A stretch of DNA of 64,000 nt from Aquila chrysaetos chrysaetos (taxonomy: Eukaryota; Chordata; Aves; Accipitriformes; Accipitridae): positions 1 to 64,000 of the forward strand of contig NW_024470395.1 of NCBI RefSeq assembly GCF_900496995.4. The letters are read 5' to 3'. Of this stretch, positions 33,901 to 64,000 are shown piece by piece. Numbering within the stretch: position 1 is the first letter of the stretch; each line of letters begins with the position of its first letter. The position numbers and the translations under genes were made by a program. The notes under the pieces were generated by a model. That model saw only the letters and a program-made list of their open reading frames with translations. It made no database searches and was not told the DNA's origin.

Positions 33901-36900
33901 GGAATCAGGGACAACCCCCCCCTCCCCCAAAAAACCTCCCTGGGGGGGATTGGGGACCCCCAAAATCCTCACCGGGGGGTATTGCAGACCCCCCAAAACC
34001 CTCCTGGGGTGATCTGGAACCCCCAAAACCTTCAGGGGGGATTGGGGACTCTAAAACCCTCATGGGGGGGTCAGGGATGCCCCAAACCCTCCTGAAGAAT
34101 CAGTGACCCCCCCAAAACCCTTGTAGGGGAATCAGGGACCCCCAAAACTCTTCTGGGGGGGTCAGGGACCCCCCAAAATCCTCATGGGGTGATCTGGCAC
34201 CCCAAAACCTTCTCTGGGGGGGGATCAGGGCCCCCTCCCTGCCCCCCAAGGGGGGTCCCCAAGCACTACCCAACCCCTGCCCCCCACCCAGCAGCCCGCC
34301 GAACGTTCGTGGTCGGGGTCCCGGGGGGTTCGGGGGGGGGCCCCCCGAATCTCAGGTTCTGGAGACGGTGCTGGGGCTGGAGGGGAACGGGAGCTGCTGC
34401 GACTGCCGGGAGCCGGCACCCGCCTGGGCCAGCGTCAACCTGGGCATCACCCTCTGCATCGAGTGCTCCGGCATCCACCGGTGAGGGCACCCCAAACCCC
34501 CCCCCGGGCACCCCAAAAAACCCCCAGGGCACCCCGACCCCCCCCCTGCCCCCCAGGACCCTCTAATGTCTCCCCAAGGTCCCTCAAATGTCCCTCAAGG
34601 GTCCCCAGATCCAGCATCAGCCTCTGCCTTGAGGGCTTCAGCATCTACCGGGGCACCCCAAAATGAGATAAGGGCGCCCCAAAATCCCCCTGGCCCCCCC
34701 CAGACCCCCCAAAGATCTCGCCCAAGGTCCCTCCAAAGTCCCCCAAGGGTCCCCCCGTGGGCCTGCATAGCCCCCCCAAGAGCCCTTCAACACCCCTGCA
34801 AGATCCTCAGGGCACTCCAGTGACCCCCAAGATCGCCCAGAGACCCCCAAGACCCCCAGGGCCCCCCCAGGGACCTTCAGAGCCCCCCACGATCCCCAGG
34901 CCCCCCCCAGGACCCTCAGGGCCCCCCAATGCACCCCAAGACTCCCCCAGGGACCTGCACAGGCCCTGGGGACCCCCAGGACCTCCCACTGAGCCCCCCC
35001 AAGAGCCCCCTGAGACCACCCGGGGCCCCCCAAGACCCCCCCAGGGACTGTCAGAGCCCTCAGCCCACCCCCAGGGACCCAAACACCCTCCAGGGCCCCC
35101 CCAAGACCCCCCCGGACCCTCAGGGCCACCCCAGGGACCCCCCAAAATCCCCCAGGGCCCCCCCAACACTCCCCCCAGTGAGCTGTAGGGCCTCCAGGAC
35201 CCCCCCACTCCCCCAGGGACCACCAATGCCCCCCAAGACCCCCCCAAGGACCTTCAGAGTCCCCCAGGGATGCCCCCAGGACCATGAGGGCCACCCCTGA
35301 CCCCCCAAATCCCCCCCCCCCAGGAGCCTGGGGGTCCACTTCTCCAAAGTGCGTTCGCTGACGCTGGACTCCTGGGAGCCTGAACTGGTGAAGGTAACTG
35401 GGAGCACTGGAAGGGGGGGGGACGGGACTGGGAGGGCCTGGGTGGCCCCTCCAGGTGACACTCTGGGGGTAATGTGTGTCCCCCCCCCAGTTGATGTGCG
35501 AGCTGGGGAACAGCACCCTGAACCGCATCTACGAGGCTCGGGTGGAGGAGATGGGGGTGAAGAGACCCCCCCCCGGCTGCTCCCGGTGAGAGCCCCCCCT
35601 CATACTGCACCCCAAAATTGGGGGGGGGTGTCAGACACCCCCCAGGCCCTCAGAGACACCCCCCCCCAAGTCCCAAACTGGTGCCTCCTGGGATATCCCC
35701 CTCCCCACCCAAGAGGACCCCCCAGGACCCCCCAAACCGGTGACCCCCCACAGGGGGCAGTGATAGGAGCCGCAGGACCCCCCCCCCCCAGGATCCTCCC
35801 TGGGACCCCCAGAACCAGCCCTTAGGACCCCCCAGGACCCCCCCAAATCCCCACAGGGCACAGCGGGAGGACCCCAGGACCCCTCAGGCCCCCCTCCAGG
35901 ACCCCCCAGCCCCTCTAAACCCCCCCAGGGCGCAGTGGGAGGACTCGAGGACCCCCCAGGACCCTCCCAGGACCCCTCAGGACCCCCCAAACCCCCCCCC
36001 CCCCCCCAGGGCGCAGCGGGAGGACTGGATCCGGGCCAAGTACGTGGAGAAGAAATTCGTCACCGGGCTCCCGGGAGGGGGGCCCCGGCCCCGCCCATCC
36101 CGCGCAGGCCCCGCCTCTCGCCCAGGCTCCGCCCCCCGCGGCAGCCCCACCCCCCGCAGCTGCCACACCCAGGTAGGGGAGGGAAGGGGGTGGGGGGGAG
36201 GAAGGGGCGGGGCTCTGTGTATTGGGGAGGGGCTTGATGGGTGGGGTGGGGCTTGTGGAGGGCAGGGCTATCATTAGGTGGAGCCTGCCATTCAAGGGGA
36301 TGTGCTTGTGGTGGGGGGTGGGGCATAATGTTAAGGGGCGGGGCTTCAGTTGGAGGGGTGGGGGCTTGTTATAAGGGGGTGGGGGCTTATGGAGAAAGGC
36401 GGGGCTTATCATTAGGGCAGGGCTTGTGAGGGGCAGGGCTTAGCAGTGGGTTGGGCTTATGAAGGGCGGGGCTTATGGCAAAGGGTGGGGCTATTGCAAA
36501 GAGGCGGGGCTTATGGGGAAGGGGTGTGGTTTGGGGGGCGTGGCTTGTGATGGAGAACAGCTGCTGGGGGTTGCAGTTGCTGGGGGTGTGGCTTGCACCT
36601 TTGTGGGCGTGGCTTGTGCCTCAGGCATGGCTTGTGCCTTGTGGGCGTGGCCTATGCATTGTGGGCGTGGTATCCCGGGTGGGCGTGACCTCCCAGCCAG
36701 GTGGGCGGGGCTTACAGGCCAACAACCTCCTAGCAGAGGATGGGGGGAAGCTTTGGGAGGGTGGGTGGGCGGCAGGATGGGCGTGCCTCTCCGCGGGCGG
36801 GCGTGTCCCGAGCAAGATGGGCGTGTCCTGAAGCCCCACCCCCCCCAGAGCCCCCGGAGGCGGAGGGCCCCCCCAGCCTTCACCCCGGGGCTCTGCTCTA

Positions 36901-37248
36901 CTGGGCGGCCCAGCACCGGCGCCTGCCCACCATGGCCGACGCGCTGGCCCACGGCGCCGACCCCGGGTGGGTCAACGCCGCCGAGGACAACCGCACCCCC
37001 CTGCTGCAAGCTGTCGCCGCGGTAACCGAGGGGGTGTTTTCGGGGGGGGGTGGCACCCACAGGGGCACCCTAGGGTGCTGGGACCACCCCCCACCTAATT
37101 GTGTATGACCCCCCCCCCCCCCCCCCCCAAAAAAAAAGAACTCGCTGCTGGCTTGCGAGTTCTTGCTGCAGAACGGAGCCAGCGTCAACCAGAGCGACAG
37201 CCGCGGGCGGGGGCCGCTGCACCATGCCACCGTGCTGGGACATACTGG
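24993..37248 (+). CDS. ACAP1: ACAP1 exons 1-19 (5' part; exons 20-22 lie inverted at 52125-52976)
   Basis: Arf6 GTPase-activating protein of recycling endosomes, with BAR, PH, ArfGAP and ankyrin domains in that order. Exons: 24993-25045, 27028-27085, 27594-27713, 28106-28159, 28494-28553, 29222-29405, 29762-29806, 30255-30350, 30773-30847, 31465-31578, 32108-32159, 32861-32961, 33433-33547, 34292-34480, 35324-35393, 35491-35585, 36010-36172, 36849 or 36851-37021, 37139-37248. Start [17 protein letters not shown] matches human nearly exactly. [35 protein letters not shown]. ArfGAP zinc finger CCDC...CIEC, arginine finger in [13 protein letters not shown]. Ankyrin: [20 protein letters not shown]. 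Exons 5, 10 and 14 carry one surplus base. Exon 14 has a NAGNAG acceptor. Exon 18 keeps frame only if the second AG of CAGAG is used. The last exon ends HATVLGHTG in phase 2, and no further exon follows on plus. Confidence 0.97.
25541..26210. repeat. TTGCACGAGG minisatellite in ACAP1 intron 1
   Basis: Roughly 670 bp in which CTTGCACGAGGG, TCGCACACGCGTGTG and close variants recur every 20-60 bp. The same motif family reappears at 63400-63960 in the ATP1B2 intron. ORFs on both strands here have no family resemblance. Confidence 0.75.
28560..29110. repeat. ACAP1 intron 5 GGTGCTGGGGG minisatellite
   Basis: Tandem units of about 30-36 bp built from CCCATGGGTGCTGGGGG and GTCCTGGAGGTGCTGGGGG. It gives a long plus-strand ORF that runs into exon 6 but is not coding before 29222. 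Confidence 0.75.
31121..31345 (+). repeat. Cluster of TGATTGACAG decamers in ACAP1 intron 9
   Basis: Four perfect TGATTGACAG sites at 31146-31155, 31198-31207, 31241-31250 and 31271-31280, a near match (final base C) at 31333-31342, and weaker variants near 31121, 31168 and 31300. This decamer is the published consensus of PBX-PREP/MEIS heterodimers. Spacing is irregular (20-62 bp), so it is a loose repeat. Confidence 0.8.
32165..32830. repeat. ACAP1 intron 11 GGGGGCAGATTTTGGG minisatellite
   Basis: About 650 bp of short units (15-30 bp) such as GGGGGGCAGGTTTTGGGG and GGGGTGCAGTTTTGGGG, strongly purine-biased on plus. Exons 11 and 12 flank it. Confidence 0.75.
34612..34660 (+). repeat. Diverged copy of the 3' end of ACAP1 exon 14 in the next intron
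   Basis: Exon 14 ends with codons for [13 protein letters not shown] and a GTGAGG donor (34481). About 170 bp downstream, 34612-34660 repeats the same exon end in diverged form (AGCATCAGCCTCTGCCTTGA, then GGGCTTCAGCATCTACCG) and continues into GGGGCACCCC, which parallels the GTGAGGGCACCCC after the real exon. The donor GT is not kept here. Confidence 0.75.
35740..36009 (+). repeat. Copies of the 5' edge of ACAP1 exon 17 in the preceding intron
   Basis: The real exon 17 begins after CCCCCCCAG at 36010 with GGCGCAGCGGGAGGACTGG. Near-identical acceptor-plus-exon starts lie upstream at about 35923-35950 (CCCCCCAGGGCGCAGTGGGA, then GGACTCGAGG) and 35852-35880 (CCACAGGGCACAGCGGGAGG), with a weaker one near 35750. 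Spacing is about 72-81 bp. Each copy keeps an AG acceptor in a C-rich tract. Confidence 0.85.
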
Positions 37249-37372
37249 GTGCGTCCCCAGTAGCGTACTGGGAAGGGGTGGGGAGGGGGAACTGGGGGGG
37301 GGGGGTACTGCCCCTCACTCTGAGCCCTATGTTATCAGTGGTGGCGGCGCCCACCCCAAAAGCGGCCGGTTT

Positions 37373-37419
37373 GGGAAGCTAAACAGGGGCTGCCTTGGGC
37401 AGTGCCCAGATGGGTGACC
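37373..37419 (+). pseudogene. 5S rRNA-like fragment 1 (internal control region)
   Basis: GGAAGCTAAACAGGG (37373-37387) and GATGGGTGACC (37409-37419) match box A and box C of vertebrate 5S rRNA, and the spacing from AAGCTAA to GATGGG is 33 bases, the same as in 5S rRNA. The outer arms of 5S are not recognisable, so it is a fragment or a 5S-derived repeat head. Confidence 0.7.
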
Positions 37420-37921
37420 TGACCCTACTCATTGAACTGGGGGGGGGTAACCCTCTTTATTTTGAGCGCGGGCCTCTATTCCCTTGGGGGTATCCCTATA
37501 CCCTTTGGGGCGGTTCCTGCCCCATTTTGGGGGATCTCTATTCCTTTTGGGGTGGGGTTCCTGTCCCATTTTGGGGAAGTCCTATTCCTTTTGGGGGGGG
37601 GGGGTCTGTCCCATTTTGGGGGGATCCCTATTCTTTGGGGGGTTATTTATTCCATTTCGGGGGGGGTCTTTATTCCCTTTTGGGGGTCTCTATTGCCTTT
37701 CAGGGTTATCTATTCTATTTTGGGGGTCCCTAGTGCCTTGGGGGGTCCCTATTCCTTTTGGGGGGGGTCACTATTGCTTTGGGAGGGATCCCTAGTCCCT
37801 TTTTGGGGGATCCCTATTCTCTTGGGGGGTCCCTAGTCCCTTTGGGGGGTGCAATCCCTGCCCCCCCATCTCCTAAGTGTCTCCCAAAATGGGGGGGCAC
37901 CCAGCACAGCTTCCCCCACTG

Positions 37922-37967
37922 GGAAGCTAAGCAGGTGCCACCCTGTCCGGTGCCTGGATGGGTGACC
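37922..37967 (+). pseudogene. 5S rRNA-like fragment 2 (internal control region)
   Basis: GGAAGCTAAGCAGG (37922-37935) and TGGATGGGTGACC (37955-37967), again with the 5S spacing of 33 bases between AAGCTAA and GATGGG. It lies 548 bp from fragment 1 in the same orientation. The remainder of a 5S gene is not visible. Confidence 0.72.
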
Positions 37968-38168
37968 TCACCCCCGTGTGTCTGTTCCCCCTGAACCCCC
38001 ATGTTTCCAACCCCCCCCGGCAATGTGCCCCCCGGGAGGGCATCAGGGAGGGGAGAGGGCATGGCTAAGAGGAGAGGGTGGGGTTAGGAGGCGGGGGTAC
38101 GGTAAGATGGGCGTGGCTTCACGGAGAGCAGGGCAGGGTGGGCGTGGCCTCCAGAAAAGGGGGCGTGG

Positions 38169-41100
38169 TCAGTCGGAGTCCACCGGCTCCCCCTTCAGCA
38201 GCAGCTTCTTCCCGCAGCGCGGCACCAGCCCCTCCCCCCGCGGGCGGCGACCCTTCACCCTGGGGGGGGGGGGCGAGGGGGGGGTGTCAGGGACCCTCAT
38301 ACCCCCGCCATGCACCACCCCCCCCAAGGGGACCCAGACATCCAGCAGCCTGACACCCACCCTCATACCCACCCCCCCCCCCCCCCAAAAAGTGACCGCA
38401 TCATTCAGGACCCCTCCCCAAAACCCCACCCCCCACCCACACCCCCCCCCCCCCCCGCCCCCAGAGGACTGAGGCGTCTGGAAGCCTGACACCTGCCCTC
38501 AACCCCCCCATCCCCCCCCCCCCCCCCCCCCACACAGGCACCCAGGCACCTGGGACCCCCCCATCCTAAGGGGACGCAGGTGTCCAGCTGCCCCCCCCCC
38601 CCCCCCCGGGGGTCCCTGTCCGGACTCACGGCCGTGGCAGTGCCACCGCCCCCTCGGCCGCCTCCAGCGCTTCGTTGATCTCCTTCAGCATCTCGTAGCG
38701 GCGGCGCCCATGGACCTGTCCCCCCCCCCAAAAAAAACCAAAAAACCTCGGGTGTCTGGGATGGTCCTGACCGCCCCCCCCCCCCCCCCAACCCTAGCTA
38801 TAGACCACCCAAGTGGCCCCTGGGACCCCCAAGTTGTCCCCGAGGCCCCTCAGCTGTCCCCTGGGATGCCAAATTGCCCCCCCTGGGACCCCCAACTGAC
38901 CCATGGGACCCCAAATTTCCTCCTGGCACCCCCAAATTGCCGCCCCCAGGACTCCCAACTGCCCCCAGACCCTCAATTGCCCCCTGGGACTCCTAAACAC
39001 CCCCTGGGACCCCCAGCTGCCCAAAGAGATCCCCAAATTCCCTGCCTGAGACCCCCAACTGACCCATGGGACCCCAAATTTCTCCCTGGGACCCCCCAAA
39101 CCGCCCCCCCCCGGGACCCCCAGCTGCCCCACAGGACCCCAAATTGCCCCCCCTGGGACCCCAAATTGCCCCCCAGGACTGACCTGCAGGCAGAAGACCT
39201 CGGGGTCGGGGTTCAGCACCCGCTTCTTGGAGCTCTCGGGGGCTTCAGCCGTGGGGTGACATGGCTGGGGGGGGGGGGGGGGGGGGGCAAGAGTTGGGAC
39301 CCAGGCATCCGGGGGGGCCCAGGTACCTTGGGGGGCACCCCCACCCTAACCCCATTGTGGGACCCAAGTGTCCAGGGGGGCCTCAGGCATCTGGGAGGGA
39401 CCCAGGGACACCCCCCCCCCCCCCCCAAAAGGATCCACATGCCGAGGAACCACCAGGGACCCCCCCCCCCCCCAAGGACTCAGGTACCCAGAGAACTCCC
39501 AGCGACCCCCCCCAAGGTGTCCGGGGTGATGCAGGGACCCCCCCACAAAAAAAACCCTCAGCCATCCAAGGGACCCCCATAGACCCTCCCCCCCGCCCAG
39601 CCCCCACATATCTGAGGCGGGGGGACCCAGGAACATCCCCCCCCCCAAAAGACCCAGTGACCCCCCCAAGGACCCAGGTGTCTTGGGGACCCACAAGGAC
39701 ATTCCCCCCCCAAAGGACCCAAACATCCAGGTACTCCCCCCCCCAACAGAAACCCACATATCGGGGACCCCCCCTTGGCCCCGCCCTCACCCCTCTTAGC
39801 CCCGCCCTTGGCCCCGCCCCTCTTGCGATAATTCTCCTCCTCGATCTTGCGGTCCCGGCCGGGGCAGGCGCAGACCCGGACCTCGAAGCAGCGACGCCCC
39901 AAAATCTGTCCTCTGGGGGGGTGGGGGATGACGACACACACCCAGGAGTCCGGTGGGGGACCCAGGTGTCCGGAGACCACCAGGGACCCCCCCCACCCAA
40001 AAACCCAGATGTCTGGGTGGGGACCCACGCATCCGGGGACCCCCAGGGACCCCCCCCACCCGAGGACCCAGGTGTCTGGGGACCCCCAAAAACACCCCCC
40101 CACCCAAGGACCCGGGTGTCCAGGGATCCCCAGGGACCCCCCCCCCTTCACCCAAGGACCCAGGCGTCCGGGGACACCCCCCTACCCATGAACCCAGGCA
40201 TCCAGTGACCCCCAGGGACCCCCCCCACCCCAGCAATACCCCCCCCCATCCAGGGACCCAGGTATCCAGAAGGGTCCCAGACAGCCCCCTCCCAAGGGAC
40301 CCCGGTGTTCGGGGCAGGGGGGACCCAGACATCTGGGGTGGGGGGGACCCAGGTATTTGGGGGGGGGTACAGACACGACCCCGGTGTTCGGCTCACCCCG
40401 GCCCCTCCAGCGTGAGGATGGCCAAAATCGGGCGCCTGTTCATGCCCCCCATGCACGAGCTGTTGCACATGAAGTTGTAAAGGACGGTGGTACAGTCCGA
40501 CCCCACCTGGGACGGGGACGGCGACACGTCGTTACGGGGAAAGAGGCACCCCCAACCCCCCCCAGCACCTCAAATTCCCCCCCCCCAGCCCTCCCCACGG
40601 GGCTATGTGTGGTCCCCAGGGGAAGTTTTGGGGTCCCTGGGGAGGTTTTGGGGTCCCTGGGTGGCATTTAGGGAGTGTCCTGCAGAAGCACTTTTGGGTC
40701 TAAAGAAATATTTAGGGGTCCGAGATGAAGTACTGGGGTCCCAAAGGACGAATTGGGGTCCATGCAAAGATATTGGAGTCTATGGGGTGTATTTAGGGGG
40801 TAGCCTAGGGGAGCATTTTGCGGTCCAGAAAACAATTTAGCTGCCCCAAGAAAAGTATTGAGGTCTCTCAGGAGCATTTAGGGAGGATCCTGGGCAAGTA
40901 TTTTGGGGTCTAGAGAAGTATTTGGGGGTCACAGAGCGAGTATACCTCCTGGAACAGGTATTGGGGTCCCTGGGGGGCATTTGGGGGGGGCTCTGGGGCA
41001 GTGTTTTGGGGTCTACAAAGTATTTAGGAATCCCAAGAGAGGTATGGGGGGTCTCCGAAGAAGTATTGGGATCCCTGGGGGACATTTAGGGGGGACCCTG

Positions 41101-44100
41101 GAGGAGCGCTTTGGGGTCTAGAAATGTATTTAGGACTCCCAAAACAAATATTGGAGTTCCAAGGAAGGTATTGGGGCCTCAGGAGAAGTGTTTTGGGGTC
41201 TAGAAAAATATTTAAGTGTTGGAAACAAAGTATTGGGGTCCCAGAAAACGTATTGGCATCCATGGGGTGTATTTGGGGGGGGGTGTCCTGTGAAAGCGTT
41301 CTGGGGTCTAGAAAAGTATTTAGGAATCCCAAAAGAAGTACTGGGGTTCCTGGAGAGGTACTGGGGTCCCTGGGGGGCATTTAAGGGGGGCCCTGTGAAA
41401 GTATTTCAGGGTCTAGGAAAGTGTTTAAGAGAGTCAAGAGACATTCTGGGGTCCCTGGAGAGGTATTGGGGTCCCTGTGGGGCATTTGGGGGGGTCCTGG
41501 GGGGATATTTGGGGGTCTCAGAAAGTATTTGTGGTCTGAGGGAGCAGTTGGGGTGGTAATACTACCTTTCAGTGACCTAGAAAGTAAAATATTTAGAAAT
41601 CCCAAAGAATTATTTGGGGGGGGCTGGGAGTGTATTTGGGATACCTAAATTGCTCTTAAGTATTTCAGACATCTTTTTAGAGGTATCGGAGGAGTATTTG
41701 TGACTCTTGGAGGGTATTCGGGGGTCCCAGGAAAAATATTTGGGGATTGGGGAGGATATTTAAGGATCCCGGGGAGATATTTGGGGGTGGTGGGGTAACT
41801 GGGATGTATTTAGGATTGCTGACGGGTATTTAGCTGTCATGACAGATATTTAGGAGTACCTGAGCGGTATTTGGGGTCCCTGAGAAATACTTAGTTGTCT
41901 TTAAAAATATTTTTGGGTACCTGCAGATATTTTGAGCCTCTGAAAAGCATTTAATTATCTTGTCAAATACTTGGGGCTAGCTGGGGGGATTCACGGTTCA
42001 TTAGAAGTACTTACTTATCTTGAATAATATTTGAAAGTACCTGGGTGATGTTCAGTTGTCTTGACAAATATTTGGGGGTACCCGAGGGTATTTGGGGTCC
42101 CTGGGCGGTATTTAAGGGTGCTAGGTGGGTATTTGGTGACCATGGAATTTTGGGGGGGGGTATTTGGGGGTCCCAGGGGCTATTTGGGGGTCCTTGGGGT
42201 GTTATTGGGTGTCTGTGGGAGGATCGGGGGGGTCCCAGGAAGGCTATTTGGGGTCCTGGGGAGCTATGGGGGTCCGGGGTTTTCGGGGGGGTGTTACCTC
42301 AGGGGGCTCGTAGGGCACGGCCACGCTGTGTCGCTTGGTGGTCTCATCATCGTGGGGTAACGAGCCTGGGGGTTCCCCTCCACCCGGATGAGGTGCTGCG
42401 CGGGGGCCAGGCCTGGGGAGGGGGGGAGAACGGGACACCCCAAGTCAGGCCCTGACCCTCAACACCCCCCCCCCCGCACCCCCAAACACCCCCTCTGCAC
42501 CCCCACATTCCCAACCCCTTCCACCTCTCAGCCCCTCAATGACCCCCCCAGCCCCCCAATACCCCCCCCAGTTCCCCCAAGACCCCCCCAATGCCCCCCC
42601 AACTCCCCCCCAACCCCCAACAGACCCTCCAAACCCAATTCCCCCAAGCCCCCCCCCCCCCCCCCGATACCTCCCCCCCCGCCCCAAGCCCCCCCAGTCC
42701 CCCCCGCCCATCCCCAAGGCGGGGGTCCTCACCGTCTCCGGGTCCCCCACATCTCTCGTGGTGGGGGCAACGCCGCACCACCTCGGCCACGTGCTCCGAT
42801 TTCTTATACACGGCGACGGCGCGGAGCAAAGCCCCGGGGGGGGGGCGGGACCCCCACCCTCACCTGCACCGGGCAGGGTTTGGCCAGCCGGCAGTACAGC
42901 TTGTTCAGCTCCGGGGAGTACTGGGGGGGGGCGGACAGGACACACGACGTGTGTGGGACCCTGAGCTGGGACCCCCCCCATACTGCCCAGATACATGGGA
43001 CCCCGACCTTGGACCCCCTGGGTAGCGGGGGTCCCCTATTTAGGCCCCCCCCCCCCCAATATATGTAGACATCTCGGTGTCCTGTATAGAACACTCTAGA
43101 TGCCTGGGACCCCGACATCAGACCCCCCCATAACACCCAAACACCTGAGCCCCCTCTTTAGGACCACCCCCCAATACTTGGGACCCCCCCATAGCACCCA
43201 AATCCCTGGATCCCCTATCTAGGACCCCCCCCCCCCCCCAATGCTTGGGACCCCGAGATGGGACCCCTCAGATAGCTGGGTCCCCAAATCATGACCCCCA
43301 CCCATAGCGCCCAGACACCCAGTTCCCCATCTAGGACCCCCCCCAATGCTTGGGACCCCGAAATGGAACCCCCCCATGGCACCCAAACGCCTGGATCCCC
43401 TATCTAGGACCCCCCCCCCCCCCGCAATGCTTGGGAGCCTCCATAGCACCCAAATACCTGGGGCTCCTATTTAGGACCCCCCCCAATACTTAGGACCCCG
43501 AGCTGCGACCCCCCCATAGCACCCAAATACCTGGCTGCCCTATCTAGGACCCCCCCCAATACTTGGGACCCCAAGATGGGACCCCCATAGCACCCAAATA
43601 CCTGGCTGCCCTATTTAGGACCCCCCCAATACTTGGGACCCCGAGCTGGGACCCCCCCATAGCACCCAAATACCTGGCTGCCCTATCTAGGACCCCCCCC
43701 CAATACTTGCAACCCCGAGATGGGACCCCCTATAGCACCCAAATATCTGGGTGCCCTGTCTAGGACCCCCCCCCCCAGATGCTTGGGACCCCCCATAGCA
43801 CCCAAATACCTGACTGCCCTATCTAGGACCCCCCCCCCCCCCCAATACTTGGGACCCTGAGCTGGGACCCCCCCATAACACCCAAATACCTGGGTCTCCT
43901 ACTTAGGACACCACCCCCCCCCCCCCCCAAAACTTGGGACCCCAAGATGAAACCCCTCGGATACCTGGTCCCCAAACCATGACCCCCCCCCCATAGCACC
44001 CAGACACCTGGGTCCGTGATCTAGGACCCCCCCGATGCCTGCGACCCCAAGCTGGGACCCCCCCACAGCACCCAAATCCCTGGGTGCCCTATCCAGGACC

Positions 44101-45272
44101 CCCCCCCCCAATGCTTGGGACCCCGAGATGAGACCCCTCGGATACCTGGGTCCCCAAACCACGACCCCCCCCCCAGCACCCAGACGCCTGGGTCCCCAGT
44201 ACAGGACCCCCCACCCCCTGGGTGTCGTCCCCACCCCCACCCCCGGGGTCCCATGTGCCCCCCCCCAACTCACGGTGCAGGTGACGGACTTGGCGGTCCC
44301 GGCCTCGAGGAAGCCCAAACGGAAATTGTGGTGGCCCCCGTAGTCCTCGGTGGAGGGGACCACCGGGGAGGGGGGCACCGGCGGAGGGGGGTCCGCAGGG
44401 AGGGGGGGCACCGGCACCCCCCCAGGGGCGTCCGCGGGGGGGGTCCAGGGGGTCCAGCTCCTGCTGGGGGGAAAGGGGGGAGGTTAGGGCACCCCCATGC
44501 CTGGGACCCCTTTTTTGGGGGGGGGGGGGGATCAGGGTCCCTTTTGGGGGGGGGCTGAGGACACCTGGGTGCCATTTTGGGGGTCACCCACACACCTGGG
44601 TCCCTTTTTGGGGGTTCTCAGTGTCCCTTTTTGGGGGGGTCTCAGGACACCTTGGTCCCTTTTTGGGGGGGTCTCAGGGTCCCTTTTTGGGGGGGGGTCT
44701 CAGGACAGGACACCTGGGTCCCATTTTGGTGTCACCCAGACACCTGGCTGCCCTTTTTGGGGGGGGGAGGGGGTCTCAGGACACCTGGGTGCCCTTTTTG
44801 GGGGGGTCTCAGGGTCCCTTTTGGTAGGGGGGGGGTTCTCAGGACACCTGGGTCCCATTTTGGTGTCACCCAGAAACCTGGGTCCCTTTTGGGGGGGGGG
44901 GGGGGGGGGGCGGGGTCTCAGGACACTTGGGTCCTTTTTCGAGGGGGGGTTGTCTCAGGACACCTGGGTGCCATTTTTGGGGATCACGCAGATGCCTGGG
45001 TACCTCTTTGGGGGGGGTCTCAGGCCACCTGGGTCCCCTTTTGGGGGTCACCACGGCCCCCCCAGCACTTACCCATTCCGGCAGTTCCTCAGGAATCGAG
45101 TGGATGTTATCGGGGAGCCTGCGGGGGGGGGGTGTCAAGGTCAGAGGTCACCAGGGTGACCCCCCCCCCCCAATTCCCCCCCCCCTCCCAGACACCCGTG
45201 TCCCCCCACTCACATGTTCCAGAGGTCGAGGAAGCCCTCGCCCCCCAGCAGCGGCTCCAGCTCCTCCGCCAT
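38169..45272 (-). CDS. TP53: TP53, tumour suppressor p53 (ten coding exons, complete)
   Basis: Tetrameric transcription factor of the DNA-damage response. Exons, 5' to 3': 45214-45272, 45073-45118, 44274-44460, 42733-42920, 42298-42412, 40397-40506, 39791-39912, 39184-39264, 38630-38715, 38169-38259; phases all join. Start [20 protein letters not shown]; the MDM2-binding F..LW..L is present (FLDLWNML). DNA-binding core runs from [20 protein letters not shown] to [20 protein letters not shown]. Zinc ligands are visible in RRCPHHERC and [19 protein letters not shown]-contact arginines NRRPI and EVRVCAC are kept. Tetramerisation helix [15 protein letters not shown]; end GEPVDSD. Exons at 44274, 42733 and 39184 carry one surplus C and that at 42298 two; discounting them gives about 359 aa (chicken p53 367 aa). 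The GTGAGG at about 42859-42863 is not a donor: coding continues through it. The exon at 44274-44460 has a CAGCAG acceptor. Confidence 0.97.
40600..42290. repeat. TP53 intron minisatellite (GTATTTAGGGGTCCC type)
   Basis: About 1.7 kb between the exons at 42298 and 40506, made of units around 35-75 bp such as GAAAAGTATTTAGGAATCCC and GTATTGGGGTCCCTGG. AT content is higher than in neighbouring introns. No exon was recognised in it. Confidence 0.75.
43060..44230. repeat. TP53 intron minisatellite (about 75 bp)
   Basis: Between the exons at 44274 and 42920: units containing CATAGCACCCAAATACCTGG, CTGCCCTATCTAGGACCCCC and CAATACTTGGGACCCC, roughly 13-15 copies. Plus- and minus-strand ORFs here are repeat translations. 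Confidence 0.8.
44500..45050. repeat. TP53 intron repeat (CAGGACACCTGGGTCCC type)
   Basis: The intron between the exons at 45073 and 44460 is a degenerate 40-60 bp repeat alternating TCTCAGGACACCTGGGTCCC with TTTTTGGGGGGG. A sister array occupies about 45400-45860 upstream of the start codon. No coding content. Confidence 0.7.
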
Positions 45273-46566
45273 GATGGGGGGGGGGCCGGGGGGGGCGGCG
45301 GGGGGGGGCAGCACCGGACGCCTGGGTCCCCTCTTGGGTGGGGGGGGGGGCCTGTCCGGACACCTGTGTCCCCTGGAGGGGGGGGGGGGAGAACAAGGAG
45401 TTAGGGTGCCCTGGGTGCTTTTTGGGGGGGGGGACGACGACATGGAGATCTGGGTGCTTTTGGGGGGGGGCTGTCACCCGGATGCCTGGGTCCCCTTTGG
45501 GGGGGGGGGGGTCACCCAGACACCTGGGTGCCATTGGGTGGGGGGTCACCTGGGTGTCTGGGTCCTTTTTTGGGGGGGTCACCCGGACACCTGGGTCCCT
45601 TTTGGGGGGGGGTCACCCGGATGCCTGGGTCCTTTTTCGGGGGGGTCACCCAGATGCCTGGGACACCTTTTGGAATGGGGGGAGACCCAGACACCCGGGT
45701 CCTTTTTTGGGGGGGGTGTCACCCAGATGCCGGAGTCCTCTTTGGGGGGGGTCACCGGGATGCCTGGGTCCCTTTTGGGTAGGGGGGGGGTCACCTGGAT
45801 GCCTGGGTGCTGTTTGGGGGGGGTCACCCGGACACCGGGGTCCCTGCAGGTCACTCGAGGGGGCGGAGCCCCCCCCCCCCCCCCCCCCCGGGGAAGGGAA
45901 ATGAGACAAAACCAGAGTGAATCCGGCAAAACCCGCCCCGCGGGGGGGGGCGGAAGAGAGACCGATCCGGCCGGTTCGGGCCGGTTTTGGGGGGGGGGGG
46001 GGGGGGCACACCCCCCCATGGAGTGTCGTGTGTCCCCCCCCCCCCTTATAGAGGACCCAGGCGTCCTGGGGAACCCAAAATGGGGCCCAGGCCTTCCCCC
46101 CCCCCCCCCCCCCAATTAAAGGACCCAGGAGTCCGCGACACCCCCCCGGGGGGGACACAGGCATCTGGGGACGCCCCCCCCCCAAAAAAAAGGAGGGACG
46201 CACGCATCCAGGAGCCCCCCCCTCCCCAAAAAAACAGGAATACAGGTATCCACGAGCCCCCCCCCCCCAAGAAAAAGAGGGACCCAGGCGTCGTCCCCCC
46301 CGCCCAGCACCCAGATTTCTGGGTGACCTCCCCCCCCCCCACCCCATAGGTGGCCGGGACACCCCCTGCCCCCCCCAAAAAGCCGGGATCCCCCCTTTTT
46401 TTTGGGGACACACACACACACGATATGAGACCCCCCCCCCGTTACCTCCAGCCGCTCCCGCCGCCGCACGCTGTGGGGAATCCCCCGTCCCGGCATGCCC
46501 CGCGCGGGCGGGGCGGGGATGAAGCCGCGCCGCCATCTTGGGTGAGGGCAGGAAAGCAGGGAGGGG
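45273..46566 (-). promoter_or_regulatory. TP53 5' region with candidate noncoding exon 1
   Basis: Upstream of the TP53 ATG. 45400-45860 is repeat. At about 46446-46545 on minus there is a GC-rich, non-repetitive stretch containing AAGATGGCGGCGC (YY1-like) that ends in GGAG followed by donor GTAACG (46445-46440), a good candidate for the untranslated first exon found in other p53 genes. The start of transcription is inferred only. Confidence 0.5.
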
Positions 46567-46668
46567 GGGCGGGGCCTCCTCCCCGTAACCACGCCCCCTT
46601 CCCCGGGGCAGCCCCGGAGGGGGCTGCCCCGGGGAAGGGGGCGTGGTTACGGGCAGGAGGCCCCGCCC
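46567..46668. repeat. Near-perfect 49-bp inverted repeat (palindrome) between TP53 and SLC16A13
   Basis: Arms 46567-46615 and 46620-46668 are reverse complements with one mismatch (46581 against 46654) and a four-base loop GGAG. Arms include GGGGGCGTGG/CCACGCCCCC, a KLF/Sp-type box. A third, direct copy of part of the right arm (GGGGAAGGGGGCGTGGTTTA) begins at about 46672. It sits in the head-to-head interval of the two genes. Confidence 0.9.
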
Positions 46669-46899
46669 TGGGGGAAGGGGGCGTGGTTTATGGGCAGGAG
46701 CGCCCTTTGCACGGGGGGGGGTGGATCATTAACAGGGGCTCAGGACGCTGGGGACCCCCCCGTCCCCCCGTCCCCCATAGGGGACCCAGGCGGCCGGGTG
46801 ACCCCCGACCCCCCCCAGGGGACTTTGCCCCCCCCCCCCCCCTCCCCGAGCTGCTCCGACGCTGAACCAGGTAGGGACCGGGCCTGGATGCCTGGGTCC

Positions 46900-47650
46900 C
46901 CCCTGTGACCCCCCCCCCCCCCCTCCAAACTCCTGGGTCTCTTTTTTACAGGCTCCTGGTTCACATCCCGAACGCCTGGGACCCCCCCCGGACACCTGGG
47001 ACCCCCCCCCCCGGAGCACTTGGGGCCCCCCTGACCCCCTGGGACCCCTTGGCTGCCTGTGCCCCCCTGACTCCTGGACCCCCCCCGCCGGACACCTGGG
47101 TCCCCCCCCCCAGACTCCTGGGTCCCCCCCCCCCCCAGACATCTGGGTCCCCCCCCCAGAACTTGTGGGTGCCCCCCACGGACTCCTGGGATCCCCCCCA
47201 GACACCTGCCCCCCCCCAACTCCTGGGTCCCCCCCCCAGACTTCTGAGTGACCCCCCCAGCCACCTAGGTCCCCCCCCTAGGACTCCTGCGTGTGTCCCC
47301 CCCAGACACCTGGGTCCCTCCCTGAATTCCTGGGTCCGTCCCCCCCAGCTCTTGGGTCCCCCCCCAGACACGTGGGTGTCCCCCCCCAAACTCCTGGGTC
47401 CCCCCCCCGAAGGCCTGGGTGCCCCCCCCAGCCACCTGGGTCCCCCCCCCCTAAATTCCTGGGTGCCCCCCCAGCCATCTGCGTCCCCCCTAGCCACCTG
47501 GGTCCCCCCCCAAATTCCTGGGTCCCCCCCCCAGCCACCTGGGTCCCCCCCAGCCACCTGGGTGCCCCCCCCCCAGCCAGCCGGGTCCCCCCCCCCCCAG
47601 ACTCCTGAGTGTCCCCCCCCCCGGAGGCCTGGGTCCCCCCCCCGGCCACC
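46900..47650. repeat. CCCCCAGACTCCTGGGTCC minisatellite upstream of SLC16A13 coding sequence
   Basis: About 30 units of 18-30 bp of the form CCCCCAGACACCTGGGTCCC. It lies just before the first recognisable transporter exon and probably forms its 5' intron or leader. Long minus-strand ORFs through it are repeat translations. A possible leader exon ends at about 46870 (GCTGAACCAG followed by GTAGGG). Confidence 0.7.
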
Positions 47651-47670
47651 TGGGTGCCCCCCGGCCCCCC

Positions 47671-50600
47671 CCGGGGGGGTGGGGGGTGCTGGGGGGGGCG
47701 TTCCTGCAGGCAGCGCTGGTGGCCGGGGGGGTGCGGGCGCTGGGGCTCTGCCTCCGGCCGCTAGGGGGCGCCTTCGGGGCCAGGGCGGGGGCGGCGGCTT
47801 GGGTGGGCTCCGCCCCCTTGGCCGCCCTCCAGCTGGGGGGTGAGTGTGCGCCGGGGGGGCACTGGGGGCACTGGGAGCGCTGGGGTTGCCTCTATCCGTG
47901 CCTCTGGGGTCCCAGCGCACCAGTAGGGGGCACTGGGGGGCACTGGGAGGGCTGGGGTTGCCTCTGTCCATCCCTCTGGGGTCCCAGCGCACCAGTAGGG
48001 GGCACTGGGGGGCACTGGGAGGGCTGGGGTTGCCTCTGTCCATCCCTCTGGGGTCCCAGTGCACCAGTAGGGGGCACTGGGGGGGGCTGGGACTGACACT
48101 ATCCATCCCTCTGGGGTCCCATCACACCAGTAGGGGGCACTGGGAGGGCTGGGATTGCCTCTATCCATCCCTCTGGGGTCCCAGCACACCAGTAGGTGGC
48201 ACTGGGAGCACTGGGATTGCCTCTATCCATTTCTCTGGGGTCCCAGCACACCAGTAGGGGGCACTGGGAGGGCTGGGAGGGCTGGGACTGACACTATCCA
48301 TCCCTCTGGGGTCCCATCACACCAGTAGGGGGCACTGGGAGCACTGGGAGGGCTGGGGTTGCCTCTATCCGTCGCTCTGGGGTCTCAGCGCACCAGTAAG
48401 GGGCACTGGGAGCACTGGGAGGGCTGGGGTTGCCTCTGTCCATCCCTCTGGGGTCTCATCACACCAGTAGGGGGCACTGGGAGCACTGGGATTGCCTCTA
48501 TCCATCCCTCTGGGGTCCCAGCACACCAGTAAGGGGCACTGGGGGGGCACTGGGAGGGCTGGGGTTGCCTCTATCTGTCCCTCTGGGGTCCCAGCACACC
48601 AGTAGGGGGCACTGGGAGGGCTGGGATTGCCTCTATCCATTTCTCTGGGGTCCCATCACACCAGTAGGGGGCACTGGGAGCACTGGGATTGCCTCTATCC
48701 ATTTCTCTGGGGTCCCAGCACACCAGTAGGGGGCACTGGGAGGGCTGGGATTGCCTCTATCCATCCCTCTGGGGTCCCAGCACACCAGTAAGGGGCACTG
48801 GGAGGGCTGGAATTGCCTCTATGCATCTTTCTGGGGTCCCAGCACACCAGTATGGGGCACTGGGGAGGCACTGGGAGCACTGGGATTGCCTCTATTCTCC
48901 TCTCTGGGGTCCTATCACACCAGTAGGGGGCACTGGGGGCACTGGGATCCCCCTACCCTCTCCCTGATGTCCTAAGCACACCACTAAGGAAGGTTGGGGG
49001 CTACTGGGGAGCACTGGGAGCACTGGGAATGCCTCTAGCCATCCCTCTGGGGTCCCAGCACACTAGTAGGGGGCACTGGGAGGGCTGGGATTGCCTCTAT
49101 CCATTCCTCTGGGGTCCCAGCACACCAATAAGGGGCATTGGGGGGCACTGGAATCCCCCTACCCCCCCCCAGAGGTCTTAAGCACACCACTAAGGAAGAT
49201 TGGGGACTACTGGGGAGCACGGGGATTGCCTTTAGCCATCCCTCTGGGGTCCCAATCACACCAGTAAGAAGGGTTGGAGGCTACTGGGGGGCACTGGGAA
49301 CACTGGGATTGCCCCTATCCAGCCCTTGGGGGTCCCAATCCCACCAGTAAAGGGCCCTGGGATCACTGGCACCCCCCCATCATCCATCCCCTGGCTCCCA
49401 GTCCCCCCAGTAAGCAGCCCTGGGGGCTCCGCCCCCCCTCCCCCGATTGCAGGGCCGCTGGGCAGTGCCCTGAGCACCCGCTTCGGCGCCCGCCCCGTGG
49501 CCATGGTTGGGGGGTTCCTCTCGGGCCTGGGGCTCTTCCTGGGGGCCTTCGCCACCCACATGACCCACCTCTACCTCAGCGTCGGGTTGCTGGCGGGTAC
49601 GGAGCAGGGGCTGCTGGGAAACGGGGTGCCGGGCGGTTGGGTGACCTAGAACGTGGGGGGTCACCGGGCGAGGGATGGGGTGCGAGAGGGGTTGGGTGAC
49701 CTAGAACGTGGGGGGTCACCGGGCGAGGGATGGGGTGCGAGAGGGGTTGGGTGACCTAGAACGTGGGGGGTCACCGGGCGAGGGATGGGGTGCGAGAGGG
49801 GTTGGGTGACCTAGAACGTGGCGGGTCACCGGGCGAGGGATGGGGTGCGCGGGAATGTGGGTCATCTAGAACATCCTGCGGCATCGGGCGGCCTGGAGCT
49901 CTCTGGGCCGTTGGGTGACCCAGAACACCCCAAACCATGGGGCAACCTTAGAGGGCCCAAGGCTATCGGGTGCCCTCGCCCACCCCGCCCCATTGGCCGG
50001 CCGTGCCCACGGGGTGCCCCGCCTCTCCCCACAGGCCTGGGCTGGGCGTTGGTCTTCACGCCCTCCCTGGGGACCGTGGGTCGCTACTTCCCGGCACAGC
50101 GGGCGCTGGCCACCGGGCTGGTGGTGTCGGGCGCCAGCGTCTCGGGACTGGCCCTGGGGCCGCTGGTCCCGCTGCTGCTGGACGCCTACGGCTGGCGGGG
50201 GGCCCTGCTCCTCCTGGCTGCCGCCTCCTTCAACCTGGTGGCCGCCGGGGCTCTTCTCCGGCCGCTGCCCGTCCCCGGCGAGACCCCGGGGCCGCCGCGG
50301 GACCGGCCGGGGCTGACGCGGCTGCTGCGGCACGGGCCCTTCGTCCGCTACGCCTTGGCCTTCGTGTTGGTGGACGCCGGCTACTACGTGCCCTTTGTCC
50401 ACGGGGAAGCCCGCGCCCACGAGGTGGGGTGCGACGAGCACCGCGCCGGGCTGGTGATGGCGGCGATGGCGGCGGTTGACGGGGGAGGCCGGGTCGCCGC
50501 CGGCTGGTTGGCCGCCCGGCCGGCCACCCCCCTGCTCCGTCATCTCTTCGCCTGGGCCGTGCTGACGGGGCTGGTGTCGCTGCTCCTGCCCTTGGGGACT

Positions 50601-51442
50601 TCCTTCGGGGGTCTCCTGGCCTTGGCCTCGGCCTACGGGTTCTGCGCCGGAGCCGTCGTGCCCCTCCAGTTTGCCGGCGTGGCCGAGGTGGTTGGCGCCG
50701 GGCGGTTGGTCCACGCCATCGGCCTCATGCAGATGTTCGAGAGCTTTGGGTCTCTGCTGGGGGCACCCTTTGCCGGTATGCAGGTGACCCGCCGCGGTGC
50801 CGGGGGGCCGGGAGGGTTGGGTGACCTAGAACCGGTCACAGGGGGCACCCGGGGACCGGTTGGGGGATGTGTTTCCCATCCCCACGGCTGTTTGGGTGGG
50901 CGATGGCTCGTGGTGGGCTCGGGTGACCCGGATTCGGTGACGTGGGGTGACATCGGGTGACGTGGGGTGACGTCGGGTGACCTCGGCCACGCTGCAGGCT
51001 CTCGGTACCCCAAGAGGATTGGGGTTCCCCTTGGAACCCGGGCATGTTCTGGGCGCCCCGACCCACATGCTCCCGCTCCCCCAACCCTTGGGTCCCCCCA
51101 GCGGCGTGCGGGCAGGTTCTAGGGGGGGTCCCAGGTGGGGTTTCAGGTGCCCCAACCCACACACTCCTTGTTCCCCAACCCTTTGGCCCCCCCAGGTGGG
51201 CTCTGGGCTGATTCTAGGGGGGGCGGTTGGGGTTCCAGGTGCCTCAACGCTGCCATATTTTAGGTTGGCTGCGGGACGTGACCGGGAACTACACCATCTC
51301 CTTCCTTGCTGCCGGTGCCTTCCTCCTGGCCGGGAGCCTCCTCATCCTCACCCTCCCCGGCTTCTTCCACGCTTCCCAGGGTGCCGGCGGCAAAGAGGGG
51401 AGTCCCACCCCGGCCCCCACTGGCCCCGAGACCCCCTGCTGA
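47671..51442 (+). CDS. SLC16A13: SLC16A13-like monocarboxylate transporter (four coding exons; start codon not found)
   Basis: Major facilitator protein of the MCT family, expected 12 membrane helices, plasma membrane or Golgi. Exons: about 47671-47839, 49453-49596, 50035-50775, 51264-51442 (TGA 51440-51442), phases joining as G/GG, G/GC and G/GT. The first begins in the family's N-terminal GGWG motif, followed by [16 protein letters not shown]. Exon 2 reads [20 protein letters not shown] and [11 protein letters not shown], the start of exon 3 [17 protein letters not shown], the last exon [20 protein letters not shown], very close to human SLC16A13 ([19 protein letters not shown]). Parts of exon 3 resemble SLC16A11 almost as well, so the paralogue call is good but not certain. 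No AG acceptor or ATG is clear upstream of 47671 because the sequence is C/G runs. ATTAAA at 51584-51589 is a likely poly(A) signal. It is convergent with the ACAP1 3' end. Confidence 0.86.
47850..49345. repeat. SLC16A13 intron minisatellite (about 73-84 bp, about 18 units)
   Basis: Large tandem array with unit parts CACCAGTAGGGGGCACTGGG, GGGCTGGGGTTGCCTCTATC and CATCCCTCTGGGGTCCCAGC. Later units (from about 48950) add TAAGCACACCACTAAGGAAG. The array fills the intron between exons 47839 and 49453. Confidence 0.9.
49626..49860. repeat. 55-bp tandem repeat in SLC16A13 intron 2
   Basis: Four nearly identical units containing GGTTGGGTGACCTAGAACGT, GGGGGGTCACCGGGCGAGG and GATGGGGTGCGAGAGGGG, followed by a degenerate fifth. 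The high identity between copies points to recent expansion or ongoing homogenisation. Confidence 0.88.
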
Positions 51443-51583
51443 TCCGCTCTAGAACCAGCCATGTAAAACCCTCTGCTCCCCACAAAGCTCAGCCCGGGCT
51501 CCCGTCCTTCCTTCAGCACCCAAGGGTGGGGGTGGGGAGGGCGGAGGGTGGGTGTCACCCCCTTCCTGGGGTGGGGACACCCC

Positions 51584-51589
51584 ATTAAA
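51584..51589 (+). terminator. Poly(A) signal ATTAAA of SLC16A13
   Basis: ATTAAA 142 bp past the transporter stop codon, followed by CACCAGGTGTTCTAGGTG (T/GT-rich). It is the only candidate before the convergent ACAP1 3' end. Confidence 0.6.
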
Positions 51590-51599
51590 ACACCAGGTG

Positions 51600-52020
51600 T
51601 TCTAGGTGATGCATTGGGGTTGCTTTGGGGTGACCTGGCCAGGAGCCATTTTAGGTGAAAGACTGGCGCGGTGTCAGCTCTAGGTACCCCAACCAGGGCC
51701 CGTTGAGGGGGTTGGTTCTAGACGACCCAAGCGGAGTTCATTTTGGGTACCACATGGTGGAGGTCAGGCCCAGGTAACCCACCCCGGGCCCGTTTGGGGG
51801 GCGCGGTTCTAGGTAAGCCAAGTGGGGCCCATTGTAGGTAGAAGATTTGGGGGGGGTTGGTCCTGCATGACCCAACCATCGGGGGGGGGCTCAGTTCTAG
51901 GTAACGCAAGTAGGGTCCATTGTGGGGAGCAGATTTGGGGGGGCGGTTCTAGGTAGCCCAACCAGCCCCATTGTAGGTACCACATCAGATGTTCCCGGCC
52001 GGGCGCAGAGTCGGGACCAT
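51600..52020. repeat. GGTTCTAGGTAACCCAA repeat between SLC16A13 and ACAP1 3' ends
   Basis: About seven degenerate units of 50-65 bp with GGTTCTAGGTAACCCAAG, TGGGGCCCATTGTAGGTA and GATTTGGGGGGG. Related TGACCTAGAAC motifs occur in SLC16A13 introns. No gene. Confidence 0.7.
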
Positions 52021-52045
52021 GGGAGGGGCAAGGCCAAGGCGATGC

Positions 52046-52051
52046 TTTATT
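52046..52051 (-). terminator. Poly(A) signal AATAAA of ACAP1
   Basis: AATAAA on minus (TTTATT on plus), about 75 bp past the ACAP1 stop at 52125-52127 and in the direction of that exon. It supports the minus-strand segment being a genuine 3' end. Confidence 0.75.
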
Positions 52052-52124
52052 TCATTGGAAGCTGCCTGTAAGGGGGCGGGGGCCCTGCCCCGGGGGGGCG
52101 TGGCAGGGTCTGGAGGGGGCAGAG

Positions 52125-52976
52125 CTAGAGGGTGGTGAGCTTGTGGTGGGGGCGGGCGAGCTTCTCGGGGTGGTCAGAGGCCATGAGGGAGATGTCGCGG
52201 AAGATGTCGAGGGTAGGTGTCGTCGCCTGGGGGGGGTGAAGGTGGGTCGGTGGGGGGACCCCAAAATGGGGATCCCCCCTCAAGCTCCCCATCGGGGTCC
52301 CCCAAAACCAAGGATTCCCCCCCCCAAAACCTCCATGGGGACACCCCAAACTTGGGCTGCCCCAAATATAGGGACCCTCTTGGGGGAACCCCAAACCCAG
52401 GGAGCCCCCCAAGGACCCCCTCCAGGTCAGCTCAAACTCAGCCCCCCCCCCCCAAACCCATACTGGGACCCCCCCAAATCCAAGGACCCCCCCAAACCTG
52501 CTCCCCCCCCCCAAACCCAAGGACACCCTGAACTCAGGGACCCCCCCCCCCCCCCCGCCCTTAGGTCTTTCTCAGGACCTGAGGACCACACAGCAACACC
52601 CCTGTGCCCCCCCCCAACCCCCCCCCCAAGATCCTGCTCAGGACCCCCCCCCAAATCCAGGGACACCCCAAAAACCCTCCCCAACCCCTGGACCCCCCCC
52701 AAACCCACCAGTCTGCCCCTGGGCCACCTCCAGCTCCCGCATCTTGGCCAGCCGCAGCCTGGGGAGGAGAAAGGGGGGGGGGGGGCGGTGTAAGAAGGGC
52801 AGGTACCCCCACCCATGGGTGCCCCCCCCCACCACCCATGGGTGCCTCCCGGAGGGGAATCTCACAGGGTGACGATGTCGGCGTTGGCCAGCTCGATGGC
52901 GATGGTGAGGGGGTCCTTGCCCTCTGCGTCCACCGCGTTCACGTCAGCCCCCCGCTTCAGGAACAGGCAGGCCAGG
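52125..52976 (-). CDS. ACAP1: ACAP1 exons 20-22 (3' part, opposite strand to exons 1-19)
   Basis: Exon 20 52866-52976 reads CLFLKRGADVNAVDAEGKD and PLTIAIELANADIVTL (ankyrin repeat). Exon 21 52709-52758 reads LRLAKMRELEVAQGQT. Exon 22 52125-52226 reads LDIFRDISLMASDHPEKLA and ends KLTTL, stop TAG 52125-52127. Human ACAP1 ends with the same order of motifs. Exon 20 starts in phase 2, exactly what exon 19 on plus (ending ACT GG at 37248) needs, giving HTGLACLFLKRG across the join. Only 11 intron bases (CAAAATTCCAG) remain before the N gap. Exon 22 has one surplus base near 52211-52213. It is not a second gene: there is no upstream ACAP exon on this strand in the window. Confidence 0.95.
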
Positions 52977-52987
52977 CTGGAATTTTG

Positions 52988-53487
52988 NNNNNNNNNNNNN
53001 NNNNNNNNNNNNNNNNNNNNNNNNNNNNNNNNNNNNNNNNNNNNNNNNNNNNNNNNNNNNNNNNNNNNNNNNNNNNNNNNNNNNNNNNNNNNNNNNNNNN
53101 NNNNNNNNNNNNNNNNNNNNNNNNNNNNNNNNNNNNNNNNNNNNNNNNNNNNNNNNNNNNNNNNNNNNNNNNNNNNNNNNNNNNNNNNNNNNNNNNNNNN
53201 NNNNNNNNNNNNNNNNNNNNNNNNNNNNNNNNNNNNNNNNNNNNNNNNNNNNNNNNNNNNNNNNNNNNNNNNNNNNNNNNNNNNNNNNNNNNNNNNNNNN
53301 NNNNNNNNNNNNNNNNNNNNNNNNNNNNNNNNNNNNNNNNNNNNNNNNNNNNNNNNNNNNNNNNNNNNNNNNNNNNNNNNNNNNNNNNNNNNNNNNNNNN
53401 NNNNNNNNNNNNNNNNNNNNNNNNNNNNNNNNNNNNNNNNNNNNNNNNNNNNNNNNNNNNNNNNNNNNNNNNNNNNNNNNNNNNNNN
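52988..53487. other. Assembly gap of exactly 500 N
   Basis: The round length of 500 indicates a placeholder of unknown true size. It begins 11 bases upstream (on minus) of ACAP1 exon 20, i.e. inside ACAP1 intron 19, and is the natural right-hand breakpoint of the suspected inversion. Confidence 0.98.
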
Positions 53488-54180
53488 TAGATGTCTCAGT
53501 CATGGGGTAACTGGGGGGGGGGAATCCCAGTCTGGGTTGGGGGGGGGGGTACTGGGGTTCCAGTTTGGGGGGAGAACCCCAGTATGGGGTAACTGAGAAG
53601 GGGGGGGGGGGGCAAAGAGGAGGAGAGTTAACTGGAGGTCCCAGTTTTGTGGGGGGAAGCCTAATATGGAGGGGGGGGGAATTTTGGGGAACGGGGGGGG
53701 TCCCCCAGTATGGGGTAACTGCGAGGGGGTATCCCAGTCTGGGAGGGTCATTGGTGTACGGGTATTAATTGTCCCATTTTGGGTCCTCACATGGAGGGGG
53801 AGGATGTTTTAATGGGGGGGGCCTTCCCAGATGCCTGGGTCCCCCCCTCCCCCCCCCCCCAGCAGCCCCCCCCCACCGCCTGGGTCCTGCCAAGGCTCAG
53901 CCTGGAAAATTCCTCCGTCCCCTTGATTTGACCTTGAAATGCAGCCGGGGGGGGGGGACAAAGACACCCAGGCATCTGGGGGGGGGGCAACCAGGCATCC
54001 GGGGACCACCCCCCCCCCCCCAAAGGGACTCATCACCCACCCCCCAAAAAAAAGGGACCCAGGCATTGGGGGGGGGGGGCACCATCTGGCTGGGATTAGG
54101 GGGGATCAGGGGGGATTTGCCCCCCCCCCCCCCTCCGGTGCGATGTGGGTCATGGGGGGGGGGGGGTGAGTGGGGTGTCT
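53488..54180. other. Repeats after the gap with a short non-repetitive island
   Basis: 53488-53770 repeats CCAGTATGGGGTAACTGGG. A short unique island at about 53875-53945 contains GGAAAATTCC (NF-kB-like) and TTTGACCTTGAAAT, which includes TGACCTTGA, the perfect ERR/NR5A half-site extension. 53950-54180 is C/G tracts with GGACCCAGGCATC. No exon recognised. Confidence 0.5.
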
Positions 54181-55000: not shown

Positions 55001-55085
55001 CTCTGCCAACTGGGGGGAGGAGTGGAGGTATTTGGGGCAAATTGGGGGGATTTTGGTGTCTCTCCCCCCCCCCCCCCCCCCCCAA

Positions 55086-57466: not shown

Positions 57467-63399
<5,933 letters not shown>

Positions 63400-64000
63400 C
63401 TGCGCACGAGGACACGCCTCGCACAAGGACGCGCCTTGCAAACCCCGTGCATGCCGCTTGCACGGGGGCCGCGTGCCTCGCACGAGGGCTTGCGCGCCTC
63501 GTGCACGCCACTCCCACCCCCCCCCCATGCTTCGCGTGCTGCTTGCACACCTATCGCACAAGCAGGCAGCGTGCAAAAGGAGCACCCTGGGAACGCAACG
63601 GGCTCGCACGAGTCTCGCGCACGCCTGGCATGAGGGGCACACAAGGACGGATGGGCCGTGCACGAGGACCGCGCATCGCACAGCCCCCCCTTGCACGAGG
63701 ATTACACTGGGCTTGCACGCCTCACATGTGACAGCCGTGCAATGCGCAACAGCTGTGCAACACGCAACAGCTCTGCAACACGCAACAGGGGGCCCTCGTG
63801 CAAGCCCCCGTGCAAGGGGGTGTTGGGGAGGGAAGCCACCCATTACACGCCCTCCCCCGTGCAATGCCCCCCAGTGCAAGGTTCCACGTAAGGACCCTCG
63901 TGCAAGCCCTCGTGAACCCTCGTGCGAGGGCCATACTGGGGGCGGTGAGGCCGCCCATTGCACAACCACCCCCCTCCAACACTCCCCACCACGAGGCCCC
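63400..64000. repeat. TTGCACGAGG repeat upstream of the ATP1B2 63295-63399 exon
   Basis: Intron sequence with repeated CTTGCACGAGG, CTCGTGCAAGCC and CACGCAACAGC. The same motif family as in ACAP1 intron 1 (25541-26210), about 38 kb away. No exon seen up to the window end. Confidence 0.7.

Follow-up and report, generated by a model that had tools for sequence, protein, structure and literature searches.

We report that the split of ACAP1 between the two strands of the Aquila chrysaetos chrysaetos assembly, where the gene runs on the plus strand as far as exon 19 and continues on the minus strand from exon 20, is in all likelihood an assembly error (probability about 95%, judged from the assembled sequence), in which the block carrying the last three exons is a flipped contig-terminal segment. 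The window, i.e., the whole stretch of DNA that was analysed, consists of the first 64,000 bases of scaffold C103 (147,833 bp), one of 144 pieces in an assembly of 1.23 Gb. The scaffold has two gaps, at 52988-53487 and 87780-88279, each of exactly 500 N, and is made up of three gapless contigs, here called contig 1 (1-52987), contig 2 (53488-87779) and contig 3 (88280-147833). The equal sizes of the gaps suggest that they are placeholders set by the scaffolder.

The two parts of ACAP1, with exons verified by protein match, are arranged as follows.

24993..37248, plus strand: ACAP1 5' part, beginning at the start codon and finishing with exon 19 (human residues 1-654); tblastn with human ACAP1, PH and ArfGap Pfam domains, PDB 4f1p/3jue
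37139..37248, plus strand: ACAP1 exon 19, ending in phase 2 before a GT donor
52866..52976, minus strand: ACAP1 exon 20, starting in the phase left by exon 19
52709..52758, minus strand: ACAP1 exon 21
52125..52226, minus strand: ACAP1 exon 22 with the stop codon; one extra C against the expected frame
52046..52051, minus strand: AATAAA signal downstream of the ACAP1 stop

Exon 19 ends with HATVLGHTG and two bases of a glycine codon, and the first base of exon 20 supplies the third base of that codon and is followed by LACLFLKRG. The first-pass annotation had placed the end of the plus-strand part at 37248 in phase 2, which the exon 19 boundary and its GT donor confirm, and had seen exons 20-22 in the matching phase on the minus strand beside the 500-N gap; this is also what we find, the gap starting 11 bases into intron 19. 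The donors of exons 20 and 21 and the acceptors of exons 20, 21 and 22 are canonical GT/AG sites, and the protein encoded by exons 20-22 is conserved, with close identity to human, exon 22 carrying one extra base. Pfam detects PH, ArfGap and ankyrin repeats in this order, and the protein is closest to ACAP1. When the spliced ArfGAP-ankyrin part was compared with the PDB, with the low-complexity linker omitted from the query, it matched ACAP1 (4f1p, E 2.6e-146, aligned through the last residue; also 3jue); the exon 19/20 junction VLGHTG/LACLFLKRGAD aligned with ILGHTGLACLFLKRGAD.

The effect of turning the block was assessed by chaining matches to the human protein, with the left break placed arbitrarily at 37330. 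In the sequence as given, the chain falls into residues 1-654 on the plus strand (12 matches) and 652-740 on the minus strand (3 matches); with the block turned in a script, a single plus-strand chain covers residues 1-740 (13 matches), so that the strand-split gene becomes whole and colinear. The colinear chain supports the earlier claim that inverting the block rebuilds the gene; the putative 727 codons do not stand as a literal open frame, there being one extra C, seen by eye, in each of exon 22 and an exon near 28.5 kb.

The surroundings of ACAP1 consist of the following features, with strands as they stand in the assembly.

15539..15964, minus strand: exon with a Neuralized domain (domain match), regarded as NEURL4 and oriented head to head with ACAP1
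37249..38168, no strand: interval within which ACAP1 intron 19 passes into the inverted block (left join), unmarked and without a gap
38169..44477, minus strand: TP53 as far as matched, with its stop codon nearest the left join
49455..51440, plus strand: SLC16A13 exons, covering human residue 68 onwards (tblastn with the human protein; MFS_1)
52988..53487, no strand: gap of 500 N bounding the inverted block on the right
57473..64000, minus strand: ATP1B2, continuing to 67298 on C103 (match search; Na_K-ATPase domain)

The N-terminal exon of TP53 was not located. In human, NEURL4 and ACAP1 are head to head and TP53 and ATP1B2 tail to tail, and the naming of the Neuralized-domain exon as NEURL4 follows from the human neighbour of ACAP1. 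WRAP53 is the head-to-head partner of TP53 in human. A human gene list runs from ACAP1 by way of ZBTB4 and POLR2A to ATP1B2, TP53 and WRAP53 (PMC5791184), and a table restricted to selected human genes has NEURL4 directly before ACAP1 (PMC11876076). Once the block is turned, TP53 and ATP1B2 lie tail to tail and ACAP1 is whole, so one inversion repairs both edges; the proposal that the corrected order restores ACAP1 together with the TP53-ATP1B2 neighbourhood is thereby supported. Two other genes that would be expected nearby, EIF4A1 and FXR2, were not matched on C103 at the printed threshold. By title and the start of the abstract, no paper on the ACAP1-TP53 neighbourhood in birds was apparent among those listed.

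Two further observations concern gene order and content on C103. TP53 stands head to head with SLC16A13 (44.5-49.5 kb), and WRAP53 is found at 132072-136192 of C103, after POLR2A and ~88 kb away; the TP53-SLC16A13 pair and the POLR2A-WRAP53 pair each lie inside one gapless contig. A long tandem array with a unit of roughly 65-70 bases, as estimated from offsets, occupies 47855-49426, directly before the SLC16A13 exon at 49455.

Frame-breaking extra C bases occur in C-rich context at ~28527 and ~52213 in ACAP1 and at ~42354 and ~42845 in TP53, and are probably consensus errors. These frame changes of contig 1 that fit an extra C were recognised both by script and by eye in TP53 (two) and by eye in ACAP1 (two). 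The frame-error script returned none in SLC16A13 (404 of 426 residues), ATP1B2 (286/290), POLR2A (all 1492 residues used), WRAP53 (279/548) and ACAP1 (659/740); since it missed both ACAP1 cases, these zeros are not proof. It also reported in-frame stops, one in ACAP1 and three in POLR2A matches, the latter sitting where the matches overrun exon edges.

Uninterrupted sequence runs across the left join. AATAAA signals on the minus strand, at 37456, 37646 and 37669, suggest that TP53 3' sequence reaches this far, and hence that the join may be within ~200 bases of exon 19. A search for a repeat that could mediate an inversion or a misjoin, run inside each region as well as among join interval, right flank and block end, yielded low-complexity and tandem-array matches only. 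Between the join interval and the end of the block that carries ACAP1, the best match is an inverted one of 117 columns at 68%; it is rich in G runs, as is the longest inverted match within the right region (42 nt, 81%); long similar inverted repeats, which are a substrate for recombination albeit not an obligatory one, were thus not seen at the breaks.

The join interval has some features of its own. A repeat array at 37439-37849, with runs like TTTTGGGGG and CCCTATTCC, has a 68% match over ~410 bases on scaffold C1 (C1:2908388-2908808). Two fragments ~550 bases apart beside the left join, at 37374-37419 and 37919-37967, resemble the middle-to-3' part of 5S rRNA; against a 5S query they score 32, with a shuffle maximum of 31, and 33, with a maximum of 25 (500 shuffles each). 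Rfam did not report these fragments; no RNA family was found in the window at the Rfam gathering score, and the four matches at the left join are all at chance level.

In a protein search of the bird's own genome, with 150 of 156 candidates scored and 12 loci taken, the best match of exon 19 is at C103:37136 (+) and that of exon 20 at C103:52862 (-), with none elsewhere at a similar score among the 30 matches listed; the next matches are loci on C6 and C10, which we take as ACAP paralogues and where the equivalent exons are on one strand, ~0.4 and 1.0 kb apart, followed by weaker ankyrin matches. A DNA search of the assembly, which passes over simple repeats and very common words, with 52000-52987, 37249-38260 and 53488-55500 gave self-matches and short or low-identity matches only, the join interval finding no second copy and nothing beyond the 68-72% match to the repeat array on C1. 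Neither the protein nor the DNA searches found the second intact ACAP1 3' end that the first-pass annotation had named as a test.

The second gap of C103 offers a comparable situation. Over 3.7 kb, the end of contig 2 (83644-87287) matches contig 3 in the opposite orientation (92177-88434) at 94.5% identity. This is the only inverted duplicate of more than 150 bp and more than 82% found in C103 with the settings used, and it leaves uncovered 492 bases at the end of contig 2 and 154 at the start of contig 3. The BLAST alignment has 71 mismatches and 134 gap positions; realignment gives 38 mismatches and 100 indel events. Of these events 71 involve one base; the differences are bunched in patches, and three neighbouring 250-column bins contain one difference each. 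The duplicated piece encodes a BTB/zinc-finger protein, whose fingers have ZNF568 chains as their best PDB matches, with Kaiso next, and its position before POLR2A suggests a ZBTB4-like gene. In contig 2, the BTB/zinc-finger half is on the plus strand and extends up to the last base of the contig, and further zinc fingers, which we take as the C-terminal part of the putative ZBTB4-like gene, are on the minus strand up to ~83640. In contig 3, the BTB half is on the minus strand and is followed by POLR2A on the plus strand, in agreement with the gene order of the human list (PMC5791184) and with the strands in human. If the final ~4.1 kb of contig 2 were turned, the halves of the ZBTB4-like gene would come into one orientation and a proper overlap with contig 3 would result. 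The case thus appears to repeat that of ACAP1, except that a copy the right way round is present in the assembly. The differences between the copies, most of them single-base indels that lie in patches, make a noisy false duplicate a better explanation of the piece than a real palindrome. An error of the same kind, contradicted by the assembly itself, is accordingly seen on one scaffold, at the second gap of C103; the first 40 kb of another scaffold, C104 (145,414 bp), has no gap and no inverted duplicate of that kind, and without a gap it provides no test.

The two flips have several properties in common. Each concerns the terminal piece of a contig, continuous with its neighbour on the inner side and bounded by a gap on the outer one; the two contigs that have a gap to their right both end in this way; and each inner join is located within or next to G/C runs or tandem repeats. 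C103 has only two gaps in its 147,833 bp, and the right edge of the ACAP1 block is at one of them, the left edge not being at a gap; by hand calculation, the probability of either gap falling in the ~2 kb spacer between exon 20 and the end of ATP1B2 is ~3%. The first-pass annotation had proposed a scaffold inversion with an unmarked left join. Misassembly is supported by the right edge at the gap and by the second flip, which contig 3 contradicts, but since the left join is gapless the block is not simply a contig misoriented in scaffolding; it is a flipped contig end.

The gapless left join is at the same time a difficulty for an assembly error, as it requires the error to have occurred inside a contig; there is no strong repeat to account for the wrong join, and SLC16A13, within the block, is without frame errors by the script. 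A real inversion of either kind, fixed or segregating, which would cut ACAP1 in intron 19, move TP53 and SLC16A13, and leave a truncated ArfGAP or a functional loss, is nevertheless very unlikely on the sequence features considered here and carries little weight in our assessment. Were it fixed in the species, through germ-line breaks in ACAP1 intron 19 and in the TP53-ATP1B2 spacer with ACAP1 truncated or lost, the uninterrupted left join and the failure of the assembly searches to find an intact ACAP1 3' end elsewhere would be as expected, and a real gene-splitting inversion is on record for STARD5 in the greater horseshoe bat (PMC8081667). Against this, the splice sites of exons 20-22 are still canonical and their protein is close to the human one in identity, the breaks do not both lie in uninterrupted sequence, the right one coinciding with the 500-N gap, the right-way copy on contig 3 contradicts the matching pattern at the second gap, and the breaks have weak low-complexity matches only (42 nt at 81%; 117 columns at 68%), so that we hold fixation to be highly improbable. 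A real inversion present on only one haplotype, with ACAP1 intact on the other, and incorporated into a mosaic assembly would account for a gapless left join along with a broken right side, and the single copy found of each edge fits with the other haplotype not being visible. That reading requires a second coincidence for the ZBTB4-like case at the second gap, and its alternative copy is absent from the assembly; we consider it exceedingly improbable.

On the favoured reading of an assembly error, contig 1 (1-52987) was built with its last ~15.7 kb reversed, leaving ACAP1 exons 20-22, SLC16A13 and TP53 misoriented behind exon 19, and a flip of the same type in the last ~4.1 kb of contig 2 splits the ZBTB4-like gene. 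The true order at the left join we infer from the turned block: in the animal it would most likely be NEURL4(-), ACAP1(+), SLC16A13(-), TP53(+), ATP1B2(-), with ACAP1 intact. A probable cause is sequence rich in G/C runs, which together with thin coverage and noisy long reads may have led to a wrong path at contig ends.

Similar cases are described in the literature. The GC-rich gene KCTD15 had an inverted contig, lying between gaps, in an earlier assembly of the zebra finch (PMC9516821); as here, the gene is a GC-rich one in a bird, an exon-bearing piece is reversed beside gaps and the gene is not annotatable whole, but the inverted contig was surrounded by gaps, whereas the ACAP1 block is a contig end with a gapless left join. 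The bat STARD5 inversion likewise parts the last exon or exons from the rest of the gene, but it is real according to its authors, much larger and accompanied by RNA-seq, while C103 has a second flip contradicted by the assembly (PMC8081667). For Hi-C scaffolding, more than half of the errors in simulated data were inversions, among them small ones (PMC6719893); short pieces are wrongly oriented there too, but whole contigs are turned, and the ACAP1 block has one edge inside a contig.

The finding is mainly a warning, the split being, at the probability given above, an artefact and not a real feature of the bird. Automatic annotation of the sequence as it stands would give a truncated ACAP1, TP53 and ATP1B2 not tail to tail, and a ZBTB4-like gene either split or duplicated. 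Flipped contig ends in small GC-rich avian scaffolds can thus pass for gene loss or for a lineage-specific rearrangement around TP53.
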